Part shown: in pieces, positions 3,483 through 55,500 of the stretch
Position numbering within the stretch: the first letter of the stretch is position 1
Layout of the letters: each line of letters starts with the position of its first letter
NCBI RefSeq assembly: GCF_032854445.1
Contig: NC_088300.1
Location: forward strand, 65,632,984 to 65,696,983
Length of the DNA: 64,000 nucleotides
Direction of reading: 5' to 3'
Source of the DNA: Liolophura sinensis
Taxonomy: Eukaryota; Mollusca; Polyplacophora; Chitonida; Chitonidae
Translations under genes and position numbers: made by a program
Notes under the pieces: generated by a model
Told to the model about the DNA's origin: nothing
Database searches by the model: none
What the model saw: the letters and a program-made list of their open reading frames with translations, nothing else

Positions 3483-3793
3483 GTGGCCTAATGGTTAGAG
3501 CCTCCCCTCAAAGTCAGAAGACCCAGAAATCAAACTCGGGGCGGGTCAGTGGGTCATACTAAAGACTTTAAAAATGGTGCTTGCTGCTGCCTTGCTTGGC
3601 TGAGGGGTTAGAGCAAGGAACATGACCAGTGTAAGAATATTGTGACTGGGTGGGGCATCATCTCTGGTGTCTTCGGCATGATATTTCAGTTGTGGCATGG
3701 ACTCACCCTGCCACAAGAAGACACAGATGCATCTAATGACTCCTCGTCGTCATATAACTGAAAAATTCATAAGTACAACATTTCAACCCCAAG
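3483..3793 (+). mobile_element. SINE-B, tRNA-like head and conserved tail
   Basis: It starts with an A-box-like tggcctaatggttagagc. It ends with a block 'gtcatataactgaaaaattc' followed by 'caaccccaagcat', and the same end block recurs at 5570-5640. Its middle part (tgtgactgggtggggcatc and ggtgtcttcggcatgat) reappears in reverse complement at 47140-47365. This supports a second SINE family distinct from SINE-A. Confidence 0.6.
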
Positions 3794-3997: not shown

Positions 3998-6900
3998 TCA
4001 CGTCCCAACGATAAACGGTGTAACTTCATAACTCTCATAAGCAAACTCTTCATTGTCATTTTCATCAAACATCAGTCCAACATAATCTATTTCTAGCTGA
4101 AACGGTCCGTCATTTCCATCGGCTTGCGTTAATCCAAAATATGAGACTTTGTTCAGTCGAATTTGCTCCTGTTTATCCTGTATTCGTCCTTTAGATGCCA
4201 TGAAGAACTTCGAAAAAGGAATCTGCAAGTACACAATAACAACACAAACAGAACTAAGGTATTTTCTCTCTATTTATTTCATTTGTTTGTTTTGTATGAT
4301 TATTGTCTTAATGTCACACTCAAGAATTTCCCACTTATACAATGGCAGTCAATTTTATGGTAAGAAAACTGGAACGCTAAGGGTAAACCCCAGACCTCTG
4401 GGAAGTATATACTGACAACCATTACCACATGACATACAGGTATGCACACGTATCTATGGAAGACAAGTTATCTTCAATGAACCCCAGTGTGATGATTCTA
4501 TCTGTTGTTAAGAGCAATGATTAGTTTTGATAATCCTGGGAGTCCTTTTGCAGTATATGTTTGATGTCCCGGATGTATAACAGTGGATGCGCTAAATACA
4601 AACTGATATGTATATTAGTCTGTAGAAAACGCCCATTTAAAGTAGACAAAAAACATGTAGTCTAATGTAAAAAAAAAAACACAGGGAAAACTAATGCATT
4701 TAATTAATTTTTTAACTTCAACAGAATGATTTTATGATCATAATATGGATATTCTGTACGTTCACTGTTTACCTTGGAGGTTTGCCAATAAGGTCCACCT
4801 CTGGTGTACAAGGTGAAGTTTATACTGGTCATGCCAGGTGACATCATAGTAAGTGCTGATGCCAATGGTGAACAGGTAAGGACGTCCATCTCCCCGTACC
4901 CTCAAAACAAGGTGGGTGTACCTCGTCCAGTCATACGGCTCTTCTCGTTGGAAAGATTTCTGTACGCAAAAACAAAAATTGCAGATTAAAAAGTATGTCT
5001 ATTTACCGAAACACATGCATTGATTTAGCTTTGGGTTTGAATTAGAAACACATTTCAGCACACTGTCTCCTTGTAGCAGGTCAATTTAAAGACCAACACA
5101 TCTATGGTGTTGCTTCACTCAAATGCATGCTGAAGACACCAGACGTGTCACACAGTCACAGTATACTAACATGGGCCTAGCCTCTTCCAACATGTCTAAT
5201 GAGTCCCAAATATTAAAGTATCAATATTAAATTTTATAATTATGGACCTGAGTCTACCTGGTCTACCAGTGGTAATTTCAAGAGAACACTTAATCTAAAA
5301 TTTGGATTCTGGACCGGTAGATCCAGGATCAATCCCTGATCGAGTCACACCTAATACTTTAAAAGAGGAAGTTGTAACTTCCTTGCTTGGCATTCAGCAT
5401 GAAGGGGATAGTGCAACGAATGGTTGACCCGTATCAGTATAATGGCTCGGGCGGGGTGGCTTACTTGCCTTCGGTAAGTCATCTCAGTGAAGCAGCACTA
5501 AATAAAAGAGCGGTGGAAATCCGTCCTGCAACAAGGAGGCACATTACACGTACATGCACCCTAAGGATTCCTTTGTCGTCATATGACTGAAAAATTGTTG
5601 AGTATGACGTTAAACCCCAAACACTCACTCACTCACTCTAAAATTTGGAGGGTAAATCATATGCTAAAGCATGTGTCATGTATTTAAACAACAAACATCT
5701 TCTTGCCATGATAATATGCTGCATTATTGCAGAAGTTGCAAAACTTCCAACCTGTGGCAAGTTACTGACTAGCTTTTCCACTAGTGGCATGTAGATATGC
5801 AAAACATATAGGTGGAAGACAAGTTGTCTTCAATGAACGTCAGATTGTACAAACTGCTGCACATGTGTGGTTGGTTGCTTTATGTCACCACAAGCTGTGA
5901 CAGTGGAGGAAGCAGAGTCTACAAATTCCCTGCCCAACGCCGGTGAAGAAACCCCTAACTCATCTGAACCAGTGATTATTTATCTGATTGTGTTTTATGC
6001 CGTACTCAAGAGTATTTCACTTATACAACTGCGGCCAGCATTATTGTGGGAGGAAACCCTGGACACAGTAATTGAAAGGCAAGCATCTTACCAACCAAAC
6101 CATGACCATTTCAAAAACATGATACTCTGATTTTTGAGTCACAATGCGATACATGACTGAATGTGTAATAGCCAATTCTGCTCAGTCAGAAAAGTTGTAG
6201 TTTAGTGTAGTACCTTGCCTGAAATGAGCTCTGCTCTTGCTGTGCAGAGGAGACGGGGATGAAAAAGAAAATAGTGTAAAGACTTTCAGAAAATGGAGAA
6301 AACGTGAGTTTATTGGTGGAATTTGTCTATAGGGTATGAAGTGTTTTGAATATAATGTTGAGTACAAGTGACAGTTGTAGATGTAGGCATGGGTTTATTT
6401 TCTTCGACAACTATGACAAGTCATTAAAAAGCATGTCATACTCTAACTCTCTTGGCTATGCCACTCGAATCTGTGTTACATATTTGCAACTATTTGCAAA
6501 CCATGATGGCCCTTTCCCATCAAAACTCATCACAGTCATATTCAGAGCTCAAATTTACCAAACACCACTCTACTCTATATACCTAACACTTACCATATTT
6601 TTGGGTGACCTCAGGTGGCAATATCCAGCTTTGTTTACAATGCCGTCCTTGGGTACTTCAGTGCAAATGTTACCCGAGAACAAGGCGTGATTGTGTCTGC
6701 TGAGTGACAAGTTAACAGAACTCTTTCCTTCCAGCAGATCCTGGTCACTCGTCACAACCCAAGAATCTAAAGCCTCTTGGGAGTTAAACCTTTCAAAATA
6801 CTCAAAGTCTTGGTGATAACGAGAGTAAAATCCATCACATCGCAACTTGATCACTATCTCCTCCTTAAATTTATTAAACTCCGGTTTCAGAATTTTGAAT

Positions 6901-7076
6901 CCCTCTTTTAGCATATCCGTCAGTTTCATGGGTTCTTTAGTGTTGTAGCCACCTTTCTTGTCTTGTTCAAAGAATGTGGCTCCGCAGCATGGGATGACAG
7001 TTACTCTGTGTTTGACGCAGCATAATGTATTTCTTGCTGCCGACACTCCACGCAGTGACTTGTACATTGCTGCCAT
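3998..7076 (-). CDS. NDUFAF1: Complex I intermediate-associated protein 30 (CIA30)
   Basis: This is a mitochondrial assembly factor for the membrane arm of respiratory complex I. The coding exons, in transcript order, are 7076-6594, 4959-4773 and 4222-3998, all with GT-AG borders and phase-0 junctions. The product is about 297 aa (human about 327) once one extra base is allowed for. The N-terminus ([18 protein letters not shown]) is basic, without acidic residues, and suits a mitochondrial presequence. CIA30-family blocks visible are [46 protein letters not shown] and [11 protein letters not shown]. The middle exon is 187 nt between two phase-0 junctions. Its first half reads in one frame and its second half in another, so it has a 1-nt insertion near 4809-4816. 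This is a real frameshift or an assembly error. A 5' UTR acceptor may lie at 7111-7112. Confidence 0.9.
4271..4500 (-). repeat. SINE-like repeat in NDUFAF1 intron 2
   Basis: This contains 'actcaagaatttcccactta', a diverged SINE-A body, and then 'ggaagacaagttatcttcaa', which is shared with 5810-5835 and related to 48218-48235. It is probably an old copy of a related SINE subfamily. Confidence 0.45.
4803..4818 (-). other. NDUFAF1: Apparent +1 frameshift inside NDUFAF1 exon 2
   Basis: Upstream of this point the exon reads [12 protein letters not shown]...HDQYKLHL. Downstream the conserved [12 protein letters not shown] is in the next frame. Removing one base here restores both the frame and the expected family spacing. 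The exon length (187 nt, where 186 is expected) agrees. A single-base assembly error is the simplest reading; an allele-specific or fixed disruption is the alternative. Confidence 0.8.
5250..5640 (+). mobile_element. SINE-B-type element with (ACTC)n tail
   Basis: It ends 'gtcatatgactgaaaaattg', then 'gttaaaccccaaacactc' and a short (actc) tail, matching the end of the element at 3483-3793. A B-box-like 'ggatcaatccctgatcgag' lies near 5327. It sits in the long intron between NDUFAF1 coding exons 1 and 2. The head differs from the 3483 copy, so it may be a composite or a sister family. Confidence 0.55.
5971..6075 (-). repeat. SINE-A fragment in NDUFAF1 intron
   Basis: The minus-strand SINE-A 3' part is visible as tatttatctgattgtgtttt, actcaagagtatttcactta and cggccagcattattgtggga on the plus strand. 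The tRNA-like head is absent. Confidence 0.6.
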
Positions 7077-8716
7077 GATGGAACAGCTGATCTCCTATTT
7101 CAAATGCACCTGTGTGAAGTAAGGAAATAAAACATAATTTTACTTGCAAATTAATAAATATATAATAACGCTCATTGGCCTAATGCAGTGCTTCTTTTAA
7201 GATTTTTGGACCAAATGTAAAGTACATGACTGGATTTCTTCTTTTATTTGACTGTTGTTAAAAGCCATAATAAGAATATTTATATTTACCATGGTGGTGA
7301 TTTTTATGGTTGCGGATATCAATAAGTTCGCTTTCGACCATATCTTGGCTTATACTAAACATAGCCAAATAATGAAAGACTCAAATACACATATATAAAT
7401 TAAAACCACCAGAAATTAACATTAATCTAATTATGTTCAAACACAATGGCATGGGCTAAAACATGCACATCTCTTTGTATTTCTCCTATACATGATTGTC
7501 TGTTGTAACGCAACACTCATGTTTTAATGCAGGGCACCACATTTGAGATTTCTGAAAAAAAAATTATAGTTACTATCATATTAAACAGGTAAAGAAATGT
7601 AACCATACACCTTAAACTTTGGATGATTAATTTGAAACTCTTGTTGTCAGAAATTCCCAAAAATGTGGGTAGGGCACCTTAAAAGAATGCACAAGGTTTG
7701 TTTTGCGTCATGGTAAGAACGTTCTGCATGTTCATGTCCATGCCATTGTCTTACAAGATAATGCTATATCATTAGAATGAATTTAATTAGCGTAGTCTTG
7801 ATATGGTCTGTATAAGGCCTATACTGTGTGCTACTGAGGAGTATTTTGATGGGCTTGTTGTGCTGTGTAGAGTAGAGACAAATGAGCAGTCAAAAATATA
7901 TATTCACATTTTCTGACGAATGTCACATCTCACACTTAAATGTACTACCAGTCTACGTCCATATTTTGTATTTCTGACATTCATTCGGTCGGTAGACCGA
8001 CAAGGTAAATGTCAGAATGTTAAGTAAACAGAGAGATCATTTGGGTCGCTGAATTAGGAATAACTAGTGCGCCTGGTGTAAACCATCGACTTTTGGCATG
8101 TCACGAACAAACTTTCCCATGTGTGACATACAGATATGCACACATAGGCCTATCTTTAACGCACGTTATAAAAGCAGATTTCCTCTGCATATTAGTTGAC
8201 TCTAAATGTACTGCACGCTTACCAAGTTAACTCACCAAAGCATGAGCTTCCTTTTTCGTAACATGTGAGAGAATATGCATTGGTCGCGTGAAAATCTGAA
8301 CTATACGTTTTATTCGGACGTCAGCGTCACGTATGAACTCGCGAACAATAAATTAGTAAACGCTTCAACAAAAAAGTTATTGGGCAAAAAATAATTTAGT
8401 CTAATAAATGGTGTAAACTACTGTAGACTTTCGCACGCCCCATAAATGTTTATTTTATTTGTTGTTGTTTTTTTTTTTTCAGAATAAATTTAAATGTGAC
8501 TTTTAGAGTCTAGAGATCGATCTGGGCCGCTAGAAGGCGCTAGGTGATGACAGTTCCGTCTGCAACCGGACAAGAAAGAGGAAGTGTCTAACACATTCTC
8601 TCCCCCGTCCTTCTATTTTACAGGTTAGTGTAAAGGTTTTGTGGCGACCGTAAGGGATTGACATCATTTACTGACAAATTAAGGAGATATTTGGAGCCAA
8701 CTTAATTAGTTTTAAA
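7077..8716. promoter_or_regulatory. Head-to-head spacer between NDUFAF1 and CHP1
   Basis: The two start codons diverge from this 1.64-kb interval. A minus-strand splice acceptor (ttcacacag at 7111-7119) implies at least one 5' UTR exon for NDUFAF1 further right. The CHP1 5' UTR probably covers about 8560-8716. A pyrimidine tract followed by acag at 8617-8624 could be a 5' UTR acceptor. No TATA box is obvious. A shared promoter is inferred from orientation only. Confidence 0.45.
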
Positions 8717-14671: not shown

Positions 14672-17020
14672 CTTGACAGCCACAGGATTTTCAAATACTT
14701 TTACTTGGAAAATGTACATGACAATTCTAGATCTACTCATCTATATCATTACTTGACCTAGCACAGACAGGTCTTATAAAGTGTTAAAGTTTAGTGATAA
14801 AGAATATTGCTCAGAGATTATATGCTTACCTTGGCCACACACTATCACTTTTCTCTCGCTCTTTCCTTCTTCTTTAGAATCCTCTGAACCATAAAATACT
14901 TAGCCTTGTGAATTGAGAGATTACAGAGTAAAACCCGAGAATTATATGATTTGGTGGCTGTTTCATGTGAAACTAAACAGACACGCATAGAATGTGCTGT
15001 GCATAGGACTTTATATACCAACCTCATAAGGAATTCTAAGACTGTTATACCACCTGGACATTCATTAATAATGTAATGGAGCACTGGCAGTTGTGCTTCT
15101 CTCAGCAGATGCACGAAATAAGGATTTTATTATGAAACATGTTGCATAGATGATGGATATCGTCAACTCTCTGTAACAGACATCCTGTCAAAGCTGCAAT
15201 GGGATATTCAGTATCAGTAAAAAGACTTAAAATGTACCATTTGGACTTCTACCGGTATCCCATTGGTTTGCTTAAACATATTAATCATAGGGTACCACAG
15301 TTTAGGGACACGTATATAAGAAATTTACATACTTGTATGCATTTGGTAACCTGGATTCCATAAATCAGTTACTTGGGAACAGTTAAAGGTAGTGGTACAT
15401 TTGCATTTACTCACCAAACAATGCTAAATGGCATATGACTTTGGCTGTTATAACATATGTATAGTGTAAAGTTCATGTTTGTAATGGCTTCTTGAGGACT
15501 TCTTTAGCCTTGGCAATGTTCTTCCACTGCATGTCAGAATTGTAAATGCAGGTTTAGAATATTCTGAAAAGTATTGCAGAAATTTGATGGTTTAAATCTG
15601 CTGTTTAGATCATGTGGGTGGAGGAAACCCTACGACAAAGCGAGTTACACAGTGCTTGCGTGTGAAAGGAATTTACATGTACCAAGCTTTTGTATACACA
15701 ATTTATCTTATGTGATTGAATATTTTGGTCATATTGAGGATCTGTATTGTTAAAACTGTGCGCAGGTGGGTGTGTGTGTGTGTAGCAAAACTTGTGTTTT
15801 ACTTTATAGATGTATATTTACAGAAAAACCTATACAGTCTTTGTTGTTAATTAAAAGAATGTCCAGACAATGTGACTCATAAATGCACATGTTAAGTAAC
15901 CCGATATTACAGACCTAACAATGTTTCACTACCCTAATCCAATAATTTAAGCAAAATTGTCTTAAGTGTTAATATTATCGTCTTTCACAGATATCACTTT
16001 GCAATGAAAACTTGTTTCTGATTATCTGATTATCATCTGTCTAAAATACTTCAGCATTGGATTCTTGAGATTGAATCACTTGCATATAAATGTATGTAGT
16101 ACTAAATGTACGTTACCTGTAATGATAATTACTCCAGCGTATATAAGGTATATCATTACGGTGATATGTAACAGCACATGCACTCTCTTTATATTTGCCT
16201 TCAATGTAAACCATAAAAAATAACAAAAACCTGTGAAACGATAATTTGCAGGTACAATTATGTCAGAACTTCATACAGTGTAGATGATCATACAATATAG
16301 TGTAGATCTTCATAAGTTAATGCATACACATATATCCTGTTACAACAAGTTTTATCAACAGGAACCAGAAGGCACAGTCTTGAGCAAATGTAAAAATCAA
16401 CCATTTGGGGGGTGGGGGGGGGGGGGTGTAGTGAATCCATATCCACATTAACTTAGCAAAGTATTATCTTGTTTAAATCGTGTGAGGCAAAAAAAATGTA
16501 CAAAGGTTGTGAAAAGGAAGTGTATGGGAATGTTTTAGTGGTTTCCAATTGCTCTGTGATATGTGTTGGATGGGTCAAAAATAACTGAGATTGTTGGCTA
16601 TGTTTGTGTCTATGATGTTTACATAAATCATTATAATGGGTATTTTCTATATATAAAGGTAAGGTTATTTGAAGTAGATTAACTTTAAATGTTTAAACAT
16701 ATTCACTTATCCCTGAACTGTTTTCTTTATGAATAACTACATGAATAATGATGGAATTAATGTTTTCCATCCTACCACCAACACCAGGATGAATCTTTTT
16801 CTTGTATGTAAAATTATAGATCAGAAATCAATGTCTGACACAAACTTTTTTATCTTGTTAGCTTGAGCGTGATTTCTGATATTCAGTCCAAAGTCACTTG
16901 GTAGATATAGTTGCATGTACTACATGTGATTTGGTGCTACATGTACTGCACAGTTTTGCCATATTATTTTTGTCACTTTACATTCAAGGAGAACATTAAT
17001 AAAGAACTAGTGTATTGTTA
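14672..17020 (+). other. CHP1: CHP1 3' UTR and its poly(A) signal
   Basis: No ORF follows the stop. The stretch is AT-rich and contains a G6-T-G13 run near 16407-16426. AATAAA at 16998-17003 is the first well-placed signal I favour, giving a 3' UTR of about 2.35 kb. An earlier site cannot be excluded. Confidence 0.5.
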
Positions 17021-20222: not shown

Positions 20223-36144
<15,922 letters not shown>

Positions 36145-36966: not shown

Positions 36967-37560
36967 GTAAGCCACATTTACCGTATATTCACACATGCAT
37001 TAAATCTGCCCTAGTGTAGATTGATGTCATCTGAGTGGTTCCCATGGTGTTCTGAGTCTCGCCAAACCCGAAACGATCCATGACAACCACACAAATTCAC
37101 AAAATAAATACATTTTCAGACACTACACCCCAGTAATGGTAATTTATATAGCCTACCACTACAGCTAGGTAAGTGCATGTATGTAGCCATCTTAAGTACT
37201 TTGTGCTTTAGAAATGATGTCAAAATCAAACATGTTCTATGATAAAAAAAAGTTTATATGTTAAAATTATTTTACACATATGAAAGTGTAACAATATTAT
37301 ACCGTTGCTTCATCCCGCAATAGACAAGTAATTGGTTCGTTAATACCATAGAGGTCAAATATTGAAGAGTAGGCTATCGCAGTATAAACACCAGGGCCCG
37401 GTTGTTCAAAGCTATAATTAAGTTTCAGTTCATAATCTTGCAGTGTTAAGTAAAGAAGTGTGTAGAAAACTCATAGTAAAGAACCATTTGTACATGTATA
37501 CACTACAGGTTATTTAGAGATTATAGTCTTGCAGTTTTTTTAATTTTTGTTCTTCTCAGG

Positions 37561-37632
37561 ATGCTGATGACAGATGAATTGATAGACTTGAAATTGTTCT
37601 TGGAGCGCAATGGACATATCCAGCACAGCTGA
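37561..37632 (+). other. Upstream ORF overlapping the SELENOL start
   Basis: The exon that carries the SELENOL start opens with ATG at 37561, just after its acceptor. This ATG heads a 23-codon ORF in another frame that runs past the main ATG (37610) and stops at TGA 37630-37632. An in-frame TGA at 37589-37591 rules out N-terminal extension of the main frame. If this exon is used as drawn, the uORF may lower initiation at the main start. Confidence 0.55.
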
Positions 37633-40600
37633 AAGCCTCAACAAGCTAACTAATTGTATTGATAGCCTGTTACACCAGGCAAGAAGAGATTTGCAAGGTA
37701 ATTAATGAATTGTCCAGAGAATTGAATTATAATTAACGAGATGTAATATAAATTTATGTCAGAGATATGACTTAACAATTATTAGTTTGCCTCTGATATC
37801 TCATGCATTAGATTGTGGTAAATATCATATCTAAACTTTACTTGACCAGTTTTGTAGCTTACATAGATATCTTCTGCAAGCATTTCCGTTGAAACAGAAA
37901 GTTCTTATGTACACTTTTATGTTTGAAAAATGATATTTACACTTTTATGTATGTTGCACAGTTTGTGAAGTGTACCGATGCCATTTATTATGTACCTGTT
38001 TTTCAGCGTAGCATTGGATGCTAAACTGAACTATCAGTTTTGTACTTTCATCCTTTTAGATGTGTCAACAGAAGATTTTGTAGAAAAGAAGATTTCCAGA
38101 CTCTTTGGAGTGGTTAAAGCATATAGCACATGCTTCGAAAGGTTTCGTCTGTTTTGTATTTAATTTTGAGTACTGGTGATGGAAAAGCTGTGGAGCCTGA
38201 TGTTCAGTAACATATAAACATAGATAATGTCAAAATTTACACATTCAGTCACTGGCTGAAATCACTGAAAAAGCTTATTTTTCTTGAACATAATTCCATT
38301 AAATGATCCAGTGTCTGATAACCGCCATCCTCTTTCGACTGGTGGCTGAAGTCACATGCTCAGTGGTGTGCTGTTTTGTCGTTTATGTATAATTGTGCTA
38401 AAAAATACATATACGTGTAGTTTAGTTCACATGCACTATTGTATAACATATGTTATATATGTTATATTTTTTTCCGATTTGGTAAAGTTGCAATATATAA
38501 ACCAGTAATTTGTACTCTGTTGAATTTCAGTCTTAATGTGACAACACGGTCGGCAATGGACAGAAGTCTACAGAGGCAGTTCAGGTATATGAATAAATAC
38601 TCTACTTATAGCAGAGTGTTCACCCCTTCTATCAGATACTAGTACTAACCATTAACCCATTAATGGGCTTGGTGGGAAATTACAACTCACAGACAGAAAG
38701 TGTTCCCATTCACAGAGTTGCCCTTGGTGAATTTGAACATTGTGGAGAAACGCATTGTATTTACATGTAGATAGATATGGCTGTTAAGCAGTTACCTTAA
38801 AATGACCTAAATACCACACACAGGAAGTAAGCAGCATGATTTCCCACCCAGGGTAAATTATGTTACTGTTAAACAATTCTCACTCAAACAAAAGCTATAT
38901 ACTGTAAATCTTCAACTTTTTTGACTTCTAAAGCATTTTTTTCTGTGAAATTTATGCATACAGTTATTAAGAAAATCACATCAGAAATGATTTTTTTTGT
39001 GTCACACAAGATGAAGCGTTCATAAAATTGTGCAAATTACTTCCGTACACCCCTTACTTCACTCAGAATGTTTCAAAATATTGGTGGCAGTGGTGGTTGA
39101 AAGGGGTTGAGGAATTAAGGTACCACAATTTATCACCCCCAAAAATGCTATGTGAAGTGATTTATCAACCAGAAAAGTACCCTGTATGCCATGAATTCTC
39201 ACACGGGAAAAACTTGTTCTGTGATTTACTACTTAAATGCTGCACATGTAAATATGAATTTATGACCCCAAAAGTGGTAACTTGGTAACTCCATCAATGA
39301 ATTTTTAATCTGGAATGCTTACAAGGCCATTGGATATGCGATATTTCAGTAACAGGAAACACTGTGTTGAATCACTAGTACCCCACACTCGTTCAACCTG
39401 AATGGCACAAAGGCATAACAGGGATTGGTGACCTCACTGTGGAAACAGATGCCTCCTCAGGCTATAGAAAAAACTCACTCTTGATTGGTTAAAAGTGATA
39501 ACATGACAGTGTTTTTGATTTTATTGATGTGTGTAAATTTGCTTACTTTGAACTGTAATATCTCAGGTTATAAGTCACAAAAAGAAGTTCGCTTTTTAAA
39601 CTTTGAGTGGGATACTATTTCAATACATTTGCCGTTTGTGGGAAGGTCTGTCAGCAACCTGCGGCTGGTTGTGGGTCCCCCCAGGGTTTACCCGGTTTGC
39701 TCCCACCATAATGCTGACCGCTGTCATAGAAGTGAAATATTCTTTAGTATGATGCAAAACATCAATCAAAAAAATAAATAAATAAATTTCAGTACATTTG
39801 ATTTAGTGTAGTCTTTTCCTTGTACACATATATATGGTATACTTATGCAACTCTTTAGGACTTATGTAGATGAACTGACTCAGGGGACTGCTTCATTTAA
39901 TAGTGAGGAGGATGGTTCTTGTGTTAAGGGAAATGTTAATCCTGCTTGTTTCTGAGAACTGGATATTTGTATGTAAATGCAAATGTGCTTCCAAGTTAAT
40001 GAGATTACTTCACACTAGAGCCTTTAGTCCTTACCTGATAAAGGTGCAACTTATGATTATAGACATCAGGAGATTCAAGAGAGAGTGCAGCACTTGGAAG
40101 AAATAGAGGTATGTAAAATACATGTACATGTAGATTAAACTGTTATCTTTGTGGTGTTTTTAATTCATTTCATTAATTGTTATCTTTGCTAATTGTCTGG
40201 TATTTCAACATAGTCCAACATGGTGGAATTTTTTCTTTCTAGTAGTAATGGCATTTTCTGGGAGTAAATAGCAAAGTGCTGAAGTACATGTACATAGGGG
40301 TGCTCAGTTTTGGGTGAAGGGAAAGGAAGATTTGTTTTAACTGTACCAGAATATTCAGCCACTCAATACAGGAAATTGCTGACTAGGACTATTTTAGAAA
40401 GCTTAATGTAAAATTAGCAAAAAGTAGTTGTCTGCATTTGGACAGTTACATGTTGTTTGATTTCCAGCATTCACAAGTCATACTGTACAATATACCTGTT
40501 TGTACATGCATAGCATGAAAAGCTTAAATTTCTTTACATATAATTGAATACATTATTTTCATTTATAATATTGCCTATCCCAGAAGATGCATCAAGACCA

Positions 40601-43600
40601 AAATTATTCATTTGCAATAATGCTTCCTGTATGTTAAAGTAGCTTTAAAGCAACTGCATACATTTGTAATAGGTTACAGGTAATCTAATTTTGTAATAGG
40701 TGACAGAAAATCTAATTTTGATTTTAAGCGAGACTGGGACACTTTCTTGAAAGACATAGACTCAAGTTTATATCGGGATGAAAAGGCAGCAGTGACATCT
40801 GGTGAACCAGGTCCCATCTCCCTCTCCCTGGAGAATGCTAGATCAGGGGAGAAAACCTCACTAGCAGACTACCTTGGGTCATCTGCTTTGATACTGATAC
40901 TGCTGCGTCATTTTGCCTGACTACCGTGACGAAACCATGTGGCACAGGTCCAACAGAATGAGGTAAATAGTTAATAGGTATATTCTCTGAGTCTGATACA
41001 GTGCCGAATTCAAGAGAGGTATGTGGCAAGAGTAGGGGTCTGCAGATATTTAATATACTGGTGAATTGTTTGTCCTTATGACCTCTTCCCATTAAATTTA
41101 TCATGAAAAAATCGTGAACATTAGTTTTAAGTACCTGACAGTGAGATAAAAGTGACCACATTGCTGGTGATGCTTTTATTAAATGTTTGAGGGCTTGTAT
41201 CGTGAAAAAAAGTTCTTCTTTAGTATATGTACAAACAGTACACAATTTACCACAATTTGGCTGGAATATTGCCGAAGTGGCGATAAGTTGTAATCATTCA
41301 TTTATTCTTCTGAGATAAATGCAAATTATAATATGGTATCCTGCCAGCCTTCTGCTAATCACCACGTGAAATGTATAAATGTATTTATTATGACGGGTAT
41401 TAATGTGGAGTTGAGCTTACATATGTATACTCTGTGTCTGCTGTATTGATGTGGAGTTGAGCTTACATATATGTACTCTGTGTCTGCTGTATTGATGTGG
41501 AATTGAGCTTACATATATGTACTCTGTGTCTGCTGTATTAATGTGGAATTGAGCTTACATATATGTACTCTGTGTCTGCCGTATTGATGTGTAGTAGAGC
41601 TTACATATATGTACTCTGTGTCTGCTATATTGATGTTGAGTTGAGCTTACATATATGTACTCTGTGTCTGCTGTAATGATGTGGAGTTGAGCTTACATAT
41701 ATGTACTCTGTGTCTGCTGTATTGATGTGGAGTTGAGCTTACATATATGTACTCTGTGTCTGCTGTATTGATGTGGAGTTGAGCTTACATATATGTACTC
41801 TGTGTCTGCTATATTGATGTGGAGTTGCGCTTACATATATGTACTCTGTGTCTGTTGTATTGATGTGGAATTGAGCTTACATATATGTACTCTGTGTCTG
41901 CTGTATTGATGTGGAGTTGAGCTTACATATGTATACTCTGTGTCTGCTGTATTGATGTGGAATTGAGCTTACATATATGTACTTTGTGTCTGCTGTATTG
42001 ATGTGGAGTTGAGCTTACATATATGTACTCTGTGTCTGCTGTATTGATGTGGAATTGAGCTTACATATATGTACTCTGTGTCTGCTGTATTAATGTGGAG
42101 TTGAGCTTACATATATGTACTCTGTGTCTGCTATATTGATGTGTAGTAGAGCTAACATATATGTACTCTGTGTCTGCTATATTGATGTGGAGTTGAGCTT
42201 ACATATATGTACTCTGTGTCTGCTATATTGATGTGGAGTTGAGCTTACATATATGTACTCTGTGTCTGCTGTATTGATGTGGAGTTGAGCTTACATATAT
42301 GTACTCTGTGTCTGCTGTATTGGTGTGGAGTTGAGCTTACATATATGTACTCTGTGTCTGCTGTATTGATGTGGAGTTGAGCTTACATATATGTACTCTG
42401 TGTCTGCTATATTGATGTGGAGTTGCGCTTACATATATGTACTCTGTGTCTGTTGTATTGATGTGGAATTGAGCTTACATATATGTACTCTGTGTCTGCT
42501 GTATTGATGTGGAGTTGAGCTTACATATGTATACTCTGTGTCTGCTGTATTGATGTGGAATTGAGCTTACATATATGTACTTTGTGTCTGCTGTATTGAT
42601 GTGGAGTTGAGCTTACATATATGTACTCTGTGTCTGCTGTATTGATGTAGAATTGAGCTTACATATATGTACTCTGTGTCTGCTGTATTAATGTGGAGTT
42701 GAGCTTACATATATGTACTCTGTGTCTGCCGTATTGATGTGTAGTAGAGCTTACATATATGTACTTTGTGTCTGCTATATTGATGTGGAATTGAGCTTAC
42801 ATATATGTACTCTGTGTCTGCTGTATTGATGTGGAATTGAGCTTACATATATGTACTCTGTGTCTGCTGTATTAATGTGGAGTTGAGCTTACATATATGT
42901 ACTCTGTGTCTGCCGTATTGATGTGTAGTAGAGCTTACATATATGTACTCTGTGTCTGCTATATTGATGTGGAGTTGAGCTTACATATATGTACTCTGTG
43001 TCTGCTATATTGATGTGGAGTTGAGCTTACATATGTGTACTCTGTGTCTGCTGTATTGATGTGGAGTTGAGCTTACATATATGTACTCTGTGTCTGCTGT
43101 ATTGATGTGGAGTTGAGCTTACATATATGTACTCTGTGTCTGCTATATTGATGTGGGATTGAGCTTACATATATGTACTCTGTGTCTGCTGTATTGATGT
43201 GGAGTTGAGCTTACATATATGTACTCTGTGTCTGCTGTATTGATGTGGAGTAGAGCTTACATATATGTACTCTGTGTCTGCTGTATTGATGTGGAGTTGA
43301 GCTAACATATATGTACTCTGTGTCTGCTGTATTGTAGCACCTCCTGGAGGAGGCTGGTGGACGTGTGCTCGTGGTGTCATTTGGCTCTCAGACTGGGGCT
43401 AAACATTGGCTGGAGGATACAGGCTGTCCCTTTGACATGCTGCTGGATCAGAACCGAGAGGTGAGGCAACTAGTGTCAAATTTTTTTTTTTTATCACAGT
43501 ATGCGGAAAATGTAACAGATATTTGGGTCGGCCGGTTCGTCTTTGTCATGCTTTGGTTTCCAGGCTGTAATTTTCTCCAACATTGTCATATTTTCATAAA

Positions 43601-45596
43601 ATTTTTTGTGCAGTTTCGTTTTTTCTTTCTGTGCATAAATTTGTATTTTTAACAATACCCTTAAATTAACAATAATTGCATGAAATTTTGCCTGATTTTG
43701 ATAAAAAGTGGTGGCTACCCAGATCAAGTTTGATAACCAGCTACAACGTAGACCCATGCATAGTTTTGGTGTATATTTATAAACATGGAATATTAATTTA
43801 TAACTTTTCTTTTCATAGTTGAGAAATTTGTGATATCATAAGCTGTAAAGAAGGCAAACACACCAGTAACTGTAACAATTTTATATTTGTTGTTACAAAG
43901 TTGTAATGAATGTTTGAACTCTTCAAACTTTTTTTTCATGAATTTGTGCAAGTCAAGGCTAAGGGAGTTATGGCCCTTGATGCACCTTCTTTCTCATATA
44001 CACTTATACTGATGTGTATATAAATTGTCACTTCAGGTTTATAAATCATTTGGATTGAGAAGATCTATCTTCAAGGTAAATATTTAGACAAAAACGTGTA
44101 TTTATGAAAAATAAATAATTTTTCAGAAAATTTTAGTCCTGAAACTCTCTAGTAGTTGAAATAAAAGAAAAATGCTGAAATATGCCAGAATTGAATTTCT
44201 TACATATACTTGTAATAGCAATATAAATAAAAGTGAATTATATTTATTAAAATCAGTATTTGCAAACAAATTAATCCTTGTCCTCCAACCATTGGTATCT
44301 CAATGACAGATTTAAAAGTAAAAACTGACTCATAACTGGGAGGGGTAGGGTTAATTCACATTCTAGCCACAACCGGCATGTCTTGCATTGAACACAGGTA
44401 TGGTGTATCTCCGCGCTGGTGTACTACGCCGAGCAGATGGCTGCTGGGAAGCCTCCCATCAAGCCATACGAGGATGTGGAAGACGACCCTCACCAGATGG
44501 GAGGAGACTTCATCCTAGACAAGGACGGCATGGTCAGACTTCTGTACTGCTCTAAAAACAGCTCTGACAGACCCTCTGTAGAAACTCTCCTCGATGTCCT
44601 TAAGGTGAGCAATAACATCCAGCTGTGAGGACCTGATAGTTAGTGAAAATAGGGAGATAATAATTGTTCTTCACCTAAAGTTTGAACTGTAAACATGCAC
44701 TTTCAAAACACATAAAGGCCTTTAAATAATAATCTTAATGCCAATACTCATCAAGAGGCCCTAAAGGTGTATGAGTAAGTCAGAATAAGGTAAAATGAGT
44801 CATATGTGAAAAAGACTGAACTTTAGATGTCTATTAATTTGTCCTGTAATCTGATTATCTTTTGGGCCTTAAAAATTTAATCCAAACTTTTCATCAATCA
44901 AATCACATCATTGTGAGCCATAATAAGCTGGTTGTTATGGGATGACATTTGCACATCTACAGCAAAGAATTCACATACTGATACACTATTTATCAAATGA
45001 TTTGTGAGATGTCTCGAGGCCCTGCTGACCTTCACCATGTCATCAGTTCTCCAATGAGGTTGCCCAGTTTCCTCCCACCATAATGCAAGTCGCAGTTGTA
45101 TAAATGAAATATTCAGGAGTACAGTGTAAAACACCAAATAAACATCAAAAAACAACAAATATCAAATAAATAAATTCAGTGAGGTTGTGGGTAATCATTC
45201 TGCTCCCTCTTGATTAGTTTCTGTTCATGTCAGGAGATTTATCAGATGACATGTGGCACTGGTTTTCTCTAGTCTTCCTCATCTCCTCAAAATATGTGTG
45301 AAAATTTTCTTGTGCTTGGCATCAAATAGCAATCAGATAAAGAAAAAAATAAACAAAAGATTGAAACCAGGTCATTTAGGTCACATTGGAGCAGACTTGC
45401 AAGAAATACATGTAATGTAAGCCGGCAATAGTTTTTCTAAACATATCTATAAATTGTGAAGCGTGAATGCATGTATAAGGTATCTCTTTCATTCATATTC
45501 TTTATAAAGTATAGCTATGAATTGAAGAAACTTGATTATGTTTTACAGGATTGCCATGGAAAGTCCAACACCGCAGAGCCACCCAAGACAGAATAA
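37610..45596 (+). CDS. SELENOL: Selenoprotein L: peroxiredoxin-like, Sec-x-x-Sec
   Basis: Coding exons are 37610-37697, 38060-38141, 38531-38584, 39859-39922, 40028-40108, 40729-40962, 43338-43460, 44037-44075, 44398-44604 and 45549-45596. They total 1020 nt and give 339 aa, with phases consistent throughout. Exon 6 stays in frame only if two TGA codons (40918-40920, 40927-40929) are read as selenocysteine, giving LLRHFA-U-LP-U-RNHVAQ (residues 187 and 190). This is the UxxU diselenide motif of the SelL family, placed after a hydrophobic strand as in peroxiredoxins. Later exons carry AhpC/TSA-like blocks: VLVVSFGSQTGAKHWLEDTG, VYKSFGLRRS, YEDVEDDPHQMGGDFILDKDG and DRPSVETLLDVLK. The N-terminal 120 residues look helical/coiled-coil. 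A SECIS lies 32 nt past the stop. Exons 4 and 5 borders are less certain; exon 4 could end at 39934. Confidence 0.92.
38895..39125. repeat. Dispersed repeat D, copy 1
   Basis: About 230 bp shared with 54628-54835. Common words include cttcaac.tttttgac, cttttttcagtgaaatt-like, attgtgc(a/g)(a/g)attac and gtggtggttgaaaggggttg / gtggtggctgaaaaggttg. It is intronic in SELENOL. Family unknown. Confidence 0.5.
39640..39786 (+). repeat. SINE-A fragment just upstream of SELENOL exon 4
   Basis: Plus-strand body and tail: ggaaggtctgtcagcaacct, gctcccaccataatgctgac and an (aaat)n end at 39772-39786. It ends 73 bp before the exon 4 start. Confidence 0.7.
40918..40929 (+). other. SELENOL: Two in-frame UGA (selenocysteine) codons
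   Basis: TGA-CTA-CCG-TGA encodes U-L-P-U in exon 6. Upstream the exon is open from its first base in the same frame (RDWDTFLKDIDSSL...). Downstream it continues RNHVAQVQQNE and splices in phase to HLLEEAGGRV. The two Sec sit where thiol peroxidases and thioredoxin-fold oxidoreductases carry CxxC. The codons lie 42 and 33 nt upstream of the exon 6 end, with four introns further on, so failed recoding would expose the mRNA to nonsense-mediated decay. Confidence 0.93.
41399..43334. repeat. 46-bp minisatellite, about 42 copies, in SELENOL intron 6
   Basis: The unit is attgatgtggagttgagctt plus acatatatgtactctgtgtc plus tgctgt, 46 bp. Units vary at a few sites: ggagt/ggaat/gtagta, atatgt/gtatac, ctct/cttt, gctgt/gctat/gccgt and gagctt/gcgctt. 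Variant patterns repeat at 598 bp (13 units): gttgcgc at 41825 and 42423, tactttgtg near 41980 and 42578, and gtagtaga near 42143 and 42741. This shows block duplication. The array ends only 3 bp before SELENOL exon 7. Because 46 is not a multiple of 3, open frames across it on the minus strand are incidental. Confidence 0.97.
45045..45170 (+). repeat. SINE-A fragment in SELENOL last intron
   Basis: Plus-strand words cagtttcctcccaccataat, gtataaatgaaatattc and acaccaaataaac, followed by an (aaat)n-like tail. The tRNA-like head is weak or absent. Confidence 0.6.
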
Positions 45597-46530
45597 TAAT
45601 GGACATGGTCATCTTGTGTTTTGATCACAGTGAACTTCAATCAGAATTAATGAATGCTGATGAGGAAACTTTTCTAGACTGTCAGCTGGATGCTTTCTTG
45701 GTTAAGTTCACTAGTGCATGTCAACAGCTAAGAAGTGGCTTGTTCAAATGTTGTTGGTAAAACAGCTTTTGAATCTTTTATCTTCCCATGTATCCTAGAC
45801 AGCTTTTCAGGCAGATTCTGTACATGTGTAATTAAAACCATAGAAAATTTGTAAGGGGTAAAAAATGTCATTAGATTTGTAAAATGTGTAATTACCAGGT
45901 GAACTGAAACACACCTCTAGTGCAGGTAGGGTAATTAATATATGTAGGATGGGAAAGAAAGACAGACAAAATTTATAAATAAATAAAAGTAATGATATTG
46001 CGCATGGTCCTAAACTCCCAGTACATGTGCCACAAATAAACCTAGGTAACACTTGCTGTGAAATCAGAATTTTACGAAAGCGATAGCTGAGCAAATGTTA
46101 AATTATTTTGTTGTACAATCCTGACACTCAGCTTGCATATTCTGCTGGGAGTGTGAAATAGAATGACCCATGATATGATTAAATTTATCTATGTGGCAGC
46201 GAATAAAACTTGCATGAAGCATACTATCGTCTACCTGAAAGTCCATGGTACATTTGGTTAATATTAAAGAAACAGGTATCATTGATAACACTGCTGATTT
46301 AGAACATGTTTGTCCTATTTTGAAAGTTATTAACTTTTGGCTGATAAGTCAGATCAAGTTAATTTGCATTGGAAAGGAATGTATAATATGTAAATATCCA
46401 CCGATGAATGTATCATTTGTTGTGTGTGTAGTATAGGTTGTACATGATAATATACAAGAGGATCAGTCAGAGTAATGAAATGTTGATATTTTTATATAAT
46501 GCCATTCATGAATAAATTGAATTCCCAATT
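45597..46530 (+). other. SELENOL: SELENOL 3' UTR with candidate poly(A) signals
   Basis: The UTR contains the SECIS. AATAAA occurs around 45977-45986 and at 46510-46515. Either site would keep the SECIS in the mRNA. No further coding exon was seen. Confidence 0.55.
45629..45712 (+). promoter_or_regulatory. SELENOL: SECIS element of SELENOL
   Basis: This 3' UTR hairpin directs selenocysteine insertion at UGA. The lower stem AGTGAACTT (45629-45637) pairs perfectly with AAGTTCACT (45704-45712). After a small loop, CAGAA (45642-45646) pairs with TTCTTG (95-100 of 45600s) with one bulge. An internal loop TTA/GCT follows. The non-Watson-Crick core is ATGA (45650-45653) opposite GGAT (45688-45691). 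The upper stem includes GCTGATG (45656-45662) with TGTCAGC (45680-45686). The apical loop has AAA (45666-45668), 12 nt after ATGA, the spacing known for animal SECIS elements. A bulged T next to the core is a weakness. The fold was made by eye. Confidence 0.8.
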
Positions 46531-49519: not shown

Positions 49520-52500
49520 TCATCTCAAAGGACATCCATTTGCCCAGTGGCCTAGGCTACCTGTAACAAACAAAAATGGTAGCCATGTAAATACATTTTT
49601 TCCTTTCTTAGTATTAAACAGTTTGAATCTAAATTCAACGCCTGTCCTAAATATTATCCTTAAAAATGCTTTGTAAGGAGTAACCAAATTCTCTCTGTAT
49701 CAGTATAAAGAGGATAAGTCTCTAGCAAATTTTTTTTTTAATTCTGACCTACTGAAAAAGATAGAGATTTTACAAAAATTAACACTGCAGAAAATACAAA
49801 TCAAGAAATTCTATCAAATGCCCAATAAAAACTTTAAGAGCATGGTTCTTTTCTAGAGGGTTTGTTGGGTTACCCTAACGAACATATATGTATTTATAAA
49901 CATGGTCAAAACATCAGCTGGCACATAAACAGGAAGCTGGACAGCATCACACAAACATTGACATTTGCCAATACATTTTAAGGCCAACTCTGACTCTCTG
50001 ACACTTACCACAAATAAAACATCTGCCGTATCCTCCATAGTATGCGTCGGGGTCCCCTTCAATGTCAGAATCTGGGCTTGTAAAGCCACCATCAACGCTA
50101 TCCTCATCAGTGTCCTGACTAATCTCACTGTCGCTACTGAGAACTATTGGTGCCATAGATCGTGTGCGAGTCTGAGTTGCTCCCCTTGCAGCTCCCGTGG
50201 CTGTACTAGAAGACCCTCGTCCACGCCGTCTGCCACGCCCCCTTCTGCTGCCTGCCCTTCCACGGCCAGATGTGGACGACGATGACTGATTGTTCTCCTC
50301 ATCAAACTTTTTCTGCTCAGCTATGAATGGATACAGAAGAAGTGAGAAAGTTATTGTGTGTCATCTGTATAGTGGACACGACTGTGCAATTTAACAGTTA
50401 TGGTTTACTGTAAGGTATCAAACACTGACTTAAAGGAAATGTTAACCTTGTCACGACCTTTATGTGTGAAATCCACGCAGAATCATGAGATCACAGGTTT
50501 ATGGGTGGAAGAAACCAGGCAGAGTCTGAAGATGACAGGTTTATGCGTGGAACACAGGCAGGATCTGGAGATCACATGTTTATGGGTGGAGGAAACCAGG
50601 CATGGTCTGAAGATGACAAATTTATGGGTGATGGAAAATAGGCCATAGAGTCTGGAGAAGACCACTAACCACGCCTCCAGCCACAGCAGAATAACAGAGA
50701 GTTACTTTTTCCTTAACAGTACTATAAAATGTTTACCCTCTCTAGATTTGGTCATTTCTTTCCTCCTCTCTTTTAGCTCTTCACTCAGCTGATCTACCAT
50801 CTTCTCTATGTAACTGTCCAGAACAATTGACCGAGTGAAAGACGTGAATGGGGCACGGCAGATTGGGCATTCCTTCTTCCTCTTCATCCATTGACTAATA
50901 CACAGCTGACAGAATGAGTGGGAGCAGTTTAAAGAAGCGGCCTAAAATGTTTAAAAGTTTAAATGTTAGAACATTTGTGCATGAACATAATATGTATACA
51001 TAACACACCCTAGTATATAACTACATGTTGCCCTATAAAAACATTCTTAAAGTCATAATCACTTTGTATAAATGGGCCAAAAAATGTCTCAAAATCTGAG
51101 TTTGATATGAAATTATGAACTGATTTTGTGGACTGACATAGATACATGTATTTACATTCAAGATCCAAATTAAAGATCATTTCATTTTGTTCTCAAGAAA
51201 ACAAAAAAAAAGAAGTCTCACATATACGTATTTTCAACTTTATTACATTATATTTAGTGAATTAGGTTTAGCTAGACCTATTCATGTTTCTACCTTTATA
51301 AACAATTCACTGCAGATACTACACTGCAGTTCTGTCTCCATCAGGTCTGTAAAATTGGCCAGGACATCTTCTCTAGCTCTTAGTGCAGCCTCTTTTTGCT
51401 TAGCATTCTCTGACTGAGTATCCTTTAACTGACTTTCTAGAACTTTCTGTTCTAATTCTTTATTAGCTATAACTTTAGTCAGATTCTCCCTCTGGCTCAC
51501 AAGCTCCTTTTCTAGCTGTTTATCTTTCTCCTCCAGAGCACGGTCCATTTCTTCCTGTAACTTATGCTCCACTTTCACTTTCTCTGCGATTAATGCTTCC
51601 CGCTGTGCAGTAAGTTGCCTCAAAAGCGCAGCCTCCTTTTCTTTCAGCTTTGCCTCTAGCGCCGCTTGGAATTCTTGTACTTTTCTACTGATCTTCTCTT
51701 TCTCATCTTCAAACTTTCTCTGGAAATTGAAGACATTGCATACATTATGAGGTTTAGTACAAACATAAACTATCAAACCACCTATACAGGAAACAATAAT
51801 CAGGACAAAGAAAATAAAACTACACTGTGGCCATCACATAAACTCATATTTCACTTATTAGCTACAGCAAGCAGCTCTATTCATCACTCTGTATGTCTGT
51901 CTGGCAGTCAGTCAATCTGTAGGTCAGTAAAATTTTTGACATATGTCTTTTAACAAAGACATAATTTTTGCAGCATGTTGCAGCTATTGTGAATTTGCAC
52001 CCCTATCAAGCTTGATCGTTTTTTCTCTCACCCACTCACAGTATATTTTAACCCCTGCATCCAAACTGCTTTTTTTACCAGAAATTGTCCCAAAAGGTGT
52101 CTTTATCATGATAAAAGGAAAACTAAAAATTGTTGCCCTATCCACACCAATTTTCTAAAATATTCAGCCCTTTCTCTGTCCGCCATATATAGCATGTATT
52201 TGTATATTTCTATCGGGACAGATCAAGCTCCTTGGAGCTTTACTCCCGCCATATGTCTTTTTAATCTTGTATTAGCCTTATCGCATTCTAATATTCGTGT
52301 GTCCCGAGTAATATTTATAGCATGGTTCTGTGAGTGTCTGTTCGGGTGATCCCCGTGCTTTGATAAGAAAATTACAGAGCAGACACGAACAGACGAAATT
52401 GTGTTTCCTTTTTTTCTTCACATACATCTAATATATCCTGTATATTTGTAGTTACTATAAGCTAAAGCGATAAGGCAAGATTTATGTATATGTATATATA

Positions 52501-55500
52501 GATATGGTGAATAAAGAAATCTGAAATCTGAATCTGAAATCTAAACAATGACTCAGAAATGTCAGAAGACTTACAAGAAAAAAAAACAACAAATAATATA
52601 ACTTTTGCTATTTCAGAAGCGGTGCTTGGTCACTCAATAAATCAACTCTTAATCAGGAATTCTAATGAGACTGTGAGAAACGCCATGTTAGGCAGACCAA
52701 AAAAAAAATGTTGCTTCACTCGTACTTTATGTGTATCTGACTAAAATGCAAAAGAGAGTTAGGCTGATGTCAGTTTTGAGTAACAGAAATAACTAGGGCC
52801 TGGTTGGTTAAAATTGATAACATGGTGGCACTTTCATTTTTTTCAATGTGCATGATATTGCTTATCTCAGTAATGCAACATTGCCAAAAAATAAAAAAAT
52901 GAAAAACAAGCATGCATGTTTGTACATTAGGTCTAGCGTTAAACATTTGCTCCAAGCAGTGTTATGAATATATCTCTTTTTTGAACAGACAACAGCAAGA
53001 AACGGTGCTATGAATGGTCATGTACTTTAATCGACACAAAAAAGCAGCGGAAAGTCACTCACTGACTCACTCGGTGATAGCATAAGAGGTAGTGTAATCT
53101 ATGTTGTTGTTGTTTCGCCACTAATTTCTAGCCACAAAATGACAGTTCCTCTGATAGTCCTTAACAAGTCGATGCGCAGGGAGTTATTTTTTTTTTGCTG
53201 GCACTTTTTCTGCTTTTTTCACTACTGTGAAATAAATTTATTCCACCTACATCTCATAGTTATCAATACAGCCACTTTCCAATGACATGTTTTGAACTCC
53301 TGTCAGTATAAGTAACTAAGATACCTGGTTGAGCTGTCAATCATGCATATTTATAAAGGAAAGTTTAAGACTTTGAAAATTTAAACTTAATGACTCGGTA
53401 AATCAAGGTAAATGCTGGACATCGCTAGCTTGATTAAATGAAGATGACTAAATGGTGACAACAAAAACTTCCTGAATACCTTCATAAAAAAAAAAAATCA
53501 TACCTCTTTTTCCTCCATTTCAGATTTCATTTCTTCCTCTTTTTGAAGCAGCTCTTCCACAATCTTCTCCTGTTCTTCAGCTTTGTTCTTTTCTTCCTCT
53601 AGCTCCTGTTTTATAACTGCCTCAGCAGCTTCCTTCTCCTTAAGGAGCCTCTGCATCTCGGCTAACTTCTCCTCATATTCCTTTAGCTTCTGCTTGGCAA
53701 GTTTGTCCTGTTCACTAAGCTGCTCTTTATACTCTCGAAACGGGGACCAGTTCTGCTTTATTCCACTTCTGCCCGCTGCATTAATATCCTGCGAGCTTGA
53801 TACATTATCATCCTGATCCGTTAAACTCTGGCTGTCAATGGAGCTTTTAGAGCACCCAGCAAGGCGAGACTTTTTCAGATGAGAACTACCTGTGGTAGAG
53901 TCCACTTTGTCTGATGATCGCTTTACTGGTCGTTTGATACGGGCAGCAGGGAAGTATTTGTACACGAACTCTGAAGGCATGTCTGAACTTGGATTGATTC
54001 CAAACTGAACGAGATCCCCCTCTCGCAGAGGTACACCCACATTGGCCTGCAGTCTTTCTCCATTGACAGCTACTCCATTCAAACTCTGAAAAACCATAAA
54101 TGAAGATCACACCAAAAGCTGGAATAATAAGGGCAGCAGGCACCTTTTGAGGCAAAGCAACTGAATATTCAGTGGTTAAATGGTTATCTGACACTACAAA
54201 TATTGGTTTATGATACAATGTCAACTGATCACCATAACCCATTCCCTTTCTTCCCCTTTCACAGGATCTATAATAAATTCATTTATTTATTTGAGTTGTG
54301 TTTTACACGAAATATTTCATTTATACAATGGTGGCCAGCATTAAGGTGGGAGAGAACCGAGCAGAGCCCGTCGGAAACCAACGACCACCATTATGGTGGA
54401 AGGATGCCTAGCAGAGCTGGGGCAAACCCACGACAGTAATAAATGAACCATCTCTAGCACATGCACAGCAGATGAGTATAAAATTGACTTGCCACATTTA
54501 AAACTGAACAAGGTTGAACAGTTAGTTTAGAAATACTCTAACCTCTTGTCATAAATAACTACCTGCAGATCTACAGTGATCGGTTTAAATGAAATTGCAT
54601 AAATCTTCAGATATTGTTGATCTTCTGTAAACCTTCAACCTTTTTGACCTCCAAAGCACTTTTTTCAGTGAAATTGATGCATATAATAATTTTGCCAATG
54701 TTAAAAAAACAAAATGTTAGTTTGCGTCAATAAAAATGCAACCTTCATTAAACTGTGCGGATTATTTCTCTACACTCCACAGTTCTCTCAGAACAGTGGT
54801 GGCTGAAAAGGTTGAAAAATTAGAGTAAACACACAACCACTGTATCAAAACAACTGGAATATTTCTCTGAATAAAGGCCAGTAAGACTTGTGGGCTGGCT
54901 AGCCTGGTGAAAGAAACTTTTTCCTATGACAGAAAGGCCTGTGTGTGAAAACCACATACAACCACATTGTGCCCATGATTAAGCTCAAGTCCCGCTTGTA
55001 TGAAGCCTTCTTAACGTTATAAGCACATACTGACCATGGCAACCAGCTATGTAGGCATTACGTCGGCATGGCTGTTACATGCTCGTAACATTAAGTCGGC
55101 CTTGTACAAGTTCTTGCCGGATTTTGAGAGCTGTATTACTCTTACCACAGTGTTTGAAGGTGTATTACTGACGGTTGTTTGGAAAGTAGAATGACATCCT
55201 AATGAAAAAAAAGTTTCAGCACCTGAAGTTATATTTCATGACCTTTACTAATTTGCCTCTAAAAGTGCTGTACTGGGGGAAAAATCAATATTTCTGAAGA
55301 ACTTCTTGCCCACCTTGTTGTCTTGTATGAACCAATTTCCATCTTCTTTCCTCTGGAGAATGGCATGACATCTTGATATCATGTTGCTCAAAAGGCAAAC
55401 TGTGACATCTGCTGATCGTCCGATCGTAATCTGCAACATAAAAATTGTGACATCACACAGTCACTTGTGATTTCTTTTTATCTAGTGTTATTAAATTGTG

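Follow-up and report, generated by a model that had tools for sequence, protein, structure and literature searches.

A chiton gene that very probably encodes selenoprotein L, with two in-frame TGA codons at its redox motif

Selenoprotein L (SelL) with two selenocysteines (Sec, U), a diselenide, and one SECIS element is described for fish, invertebrates, and marine bacteria (PMC2397514, PMC3316567, PMC3473315, and PMC12822975). A survey lists it in five of the six invertebrate selenoproteomes covered (PMC3473315), and a natural diselenide is reported for few proteins, SelL among them. SelL genes are poorly annotated: in Ensembl vertebrates, SELENOL belongs to the families in which <1% of the genes have a good annotation (PMC12822975). 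The SelL gene described here is ordinary but easily missed, as both active-site residues are encoded by TGA and would be taken as stops by standard annotation. We analyzed a 64-kb stretch of DNA from the chiton Liolophura sinensis (here called the window), and we are highly confident that it contains an animal SELENOL gene in which both UGAs would be recoded to selenocysteine. The full gene model, together with a SECIS candidate, makes correct annotation of the chiton SelL copy possible, and the SelL biology at this locus matches what is already published.

The gene lies on the + strand at 37610-45596 and is single copy in a search of the 609-Mb genome. Within one of its exons the reading frame meets TGA twice, at 40918-40920 and at 40927-40929, and is open on either side. 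Coding exon 1 (37610-37697, +) starts with an ATG that has a G at both -3 and +4, encodes part of an N-terminal helical region, and ends at the donor AAG/GTAATT; an in-frame TGA lies upstream of the ATG at 37589-37591. Exons 2 (38060-38141, +) and 3 (38531-38584, +) also belong to the N-terminal region and are open and in phase, the former with a weak donor, AAG/GTTTCG. A possible upstream open reading frame of 23 codons (ATG at 37561; 37561-37632, +) overlaps the SelL start codon in a different frame, and a good-looking acceptor ending at 37559 stands before it.

Two gene models differ in what precedes the exon carrying the TGAs (Sec exon). The ten-exon translation given in an earlier note on this DNA, made from the sequence alone, was reproduced exactly (339 amino acids, U187/U190), with exon 4 at 39859-39922 (+) and exon 5 at 40028-40108, both open and in phase. 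However, exon 4 occurs in this model only and is doubtful: an approximate weight matrix puts its donor, TGT/GTTAAG, at the 17th percentile of the GTs found across the window, while all remaining donors of the gene are NAG/GT. Leaving out exon 4 and starting exon 5 at 40063 (40063-40108, +) gives a nine-exon model of 306 amino acids with U154/U157, again open and in phase. Because the ten-exon model requires this very weak donor, we prefer the nine-exon model, which is simpler and fits better.

The choice of model also sets the length of the helical region ahead of the redoxin domain, which is an open frame in both. The earlier note had proposed an extra N-terminal region of about 120 residues; its presence, open and in phase, holds up, but its length hangs on the uncertain exon 4 and is about 114 residues with nine exons or 147 with ten. 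This region matched no Pfam or NCBIfam family above cut-off, and a search of the genome found no paralogue of it. One tentative and rather unlikely idea is a two-domain SelL, in which the usual UxxU redoxin domain is preceded by an additional helical (coiled-coil-like) domain, possibly lineage specific, that would oligomerize or dock the enzyme.

The Sec exon (40729-40962, +) is 234 nucleotides long, runs from phase 0 to phase 0, and holds the start of the redoxin domain (..LLRHFAULPURNHVAQ..). It bears out what the earlier note had seen there, namely an open exon with two in-frame TGAs that splices in phase: 63 codons are followed by TGA, L-P, TGA, and RNHVAQVQQNE, open to the donor GAG/GTAAAT. 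The codons GCC TGA CTA CCG TGA CGA would read A-U-L-P-U-R, placing UxxU at the redox-motif position, aligned to an invariant CxxC. The exon joins in phase 0 to 43338-43460 (+; HLLEEAGGRVLVV..), which, like the following exon at 44037-44075 (+), encodes part of the AhpC-TSA_2 domain. The exon at 44398-44604 (+) encodes the C-terminal part of the SelL-related domain and by itself scores 46.4 bits to the family profile NF040769. The last coding exon (45549-45596, +) ends with the stop codon TAA at 45594-45596.

Repeats flank the Sec exon on both sides. A 27-bp unit is duplicated at 40663-40720, directly upstream, and holds a second possible acceptor, AATAG/GTGACAG, at 40700. Most of the downstream intron is occupied by a 46-bp tandem repeat of about 42 copies (41397-43334) that reaches the next exon, and the acceptor before 43338 (..CTGTATTGTAG/CAC) is made from the final repeat unit.

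We next consider family membership. The spliced protein matched NCBIfam NF040769 (SelL_rel_redox, "SelL-related redox protein") with 149.4 bits over profile positions 11-172 of 173; the cut-off is 120 bits, and the model is used for prokaryotic proteins. Pfam AhpC-TSA_2 (PF13911) and AhpC-TSA matched at 5.9e-14 and 6.5e-14. Conservation does not stop at the first TGA, as the segment 3' of the second TGA alone gave 104 bits (5.6e-30) to NF040769. The domain score to this profile rose from 134.2 bits with X at both TGAs to 149.4 with Cys at both (+15 bits); thus, the family expects Cys exactly at the two TGA sites. In an alignment of three plasmid-borne AhpC/TSA proteins and PDB structure 9us9, both TGA columns were invariant Cys; the plasmid matches are generic AhpC/TSA proteins and served only to fix the CxxC columns. 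The two-TGA arrangement is more than chance, because both TGAs coincide with two invariant Cys columns and there is a family match on each side. A search of the genome with the NF040769 profile likewise recovered the Sec exon, with two TGAs inside the match. Queries with the protein and with its alignment with 9us9 returned no prokaryotic SelL relatives in genome contigs. No SelL relatives were found in viral contigs, and a phage search gave no match.

The machinery for Sec decoding, on whose presence the earlier note had made its SelL reading depend, is present in the genome. Two loci matched tRNA-Sec with a TCA anticodon strongly, and a third, weaker locus was likewise called tRNA-Sec. We found exons of SepSecS, exons of selenophosphate synthetase at two neighboring places, and an exon of eEFSec (1e-31 to the solved eEFSec). 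Seven glutathione peroxidase (GPx) exon matches contained one in-frame TGA apiece. Four first-exon matches with one in-frame TGA each form a tandem GPx array at C1:34845391-34865606 (L034, L035, L037, and L033). With this gene content, the genome can decode UGA as Sec.

The 3' untranslated region (UTR) contains a SECIS candidate at 45632-45709 (+), a cis-element absent from the earlier account. It starts 36 bases past the stop codon. Its quartet consists of AUGA (45650-45653) and GGAU (45688-45691), its apical loop holds AAA, and its helix I has 14 pairs in the scan. A first scan without helix I and with too short an arm spacing gave matches at chance level only; the candidate comes from a scan for AUGA, apical AA, NGAN, and helices I and II with wider arm spacing. 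Three SECIS-like structures of similar energy occur on both strands of the window, and only that at 45632-45709 has a helix I of at least 12 pairs. The remaining two, with AUGA, AA, and NGAN (3622-3682 and 15435-15496, +), have no known selenoprotein nearby and are probably due to chance. Among 300 shuffled 3' UTRs, 8 matched the candidate, and its fold has a z of -2.3, so that by itself it is only moderately significant.

We compared this element with those behind GPx genes of the same genome. The same scan detected, behind a GPx gene on C6 (L046), a SECIS candidate that equals the SelL one in length and in its quartets (AUGA..GAAAC..CUGGAUG), and it found canonical candidates behind three further GPx genes. 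Ungapped identity between the SelL and C6 elements is 33 of 78, which is not outstanding given values of up to 37 elsewhere in the window; their likeness resides in core and geometry. Rfam gave no SECIS match in the 3' region or the whole window, and this silence is uninformative because Rfam also misses the GPx candidates.

The identification as SelL, which the earlier note had proposed, is thus supported by the profile score, by conservation beyond the TGAs, by the Sec machinery, and by the SECIS candidate. What the analysis itself supplies is the reading frame, the splice phases, profile membership, the TGA/Cys coincidence, the Sec machinery, and a SECIS-like structure; from these we infer Sec insertion, diselenide formation, and a redox role. 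In translation, tRNA-Sec and eEFSec, with the single 3' UTR SECIS, would recode both UGA codons. The product would be a redoxin/peroxiredoxin-like protein with U-L-P-U at the CxxC site of a thioredoxin fold. It is very likely that the two selenocysteines alternate between the diselenol and diselenide states and that the protein carries out thiol/selenol oxidoreductase chemistry. Several exon junctions lie 3' of the TGAs, and the mRNA should therefore be susceptible to nonsense-mediated decay under selenium shortage.

Other readings of the TGAs have to be weighed against selenocysteine. The symmetry of the Sec exon (234 nucleotides, phase 0 to 0) means that skipping it would preserve the frame, and the main product could then lack the active site. 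Such skipping would cost the protein the beginning of its redoxin domain along with the active site, both conserved in the family, and may exist as a minor isoform only; as the main outcome, it is very unlikely. A decaying pseudogene is even harder to credit. TGT and TGC are each one base away from TGA, so two catalytic Cys codons could have mutated to stops. Yet the 921 to 1,020 coding bases contain no further stop or frameshift, the splice sites are intact, and this single-copy gene matches its family strongly. Two independent Cys-to-TGA changes solely at catalytic sites, in a Sec-using genome and with a SECIS candidate, are far less likely than Sec.

The least probable reading, to which we give almost no weight, is that a changed code or leaky readthrough inserts some residue other than selenocysteine; nothing in its favor turned up. 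The genome holds tRNA-Sec(TCA), SepSecS, and eEFSec, the residues aligned to the TGAs are Cys, and the SECIS candidate stands behind the stop codon. Moreover, the further in-frame TGAs seen are in GPx, a standard selenoprotein family. Recoding of both UGAs to selenocysteine remains our preferred reading.

Neighboring genes were also identified. The first coding exon of SEC23 (35433-35744, -; 3.5e-40 to Sec23A) and the SelL gene are arranged head to head. Open frames at 49950-54106 (-) converge on SelL; one piece of them resembles FHA (53501-54106), other stretches are coiled-coil or basic, and together they are possibly an RNF8-like gene. Farther away, an exon at 6573-7094 (-) matched CIA30 (complex I assembly, NDUFAF1 type) at 1.5e-8.

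Among known systems, prostamide/prostaglandin F synthase (PDB structure 9us9) shares a redoxin-type domain with CxxC at the equivalent place, but it has Cys rather than Sec and is only about 26% identical (1.6e-7). The NF040769 profile favors Cys at both positions, where the chiton gene has TGA. SelL of fish, invertebrates, and marine bacteria has the same Prx-like domain with UxxU at the CxxC site and likewise a single SECIS for two Sec, the element here being a candidate (PMC3316567 and PMC2397514).
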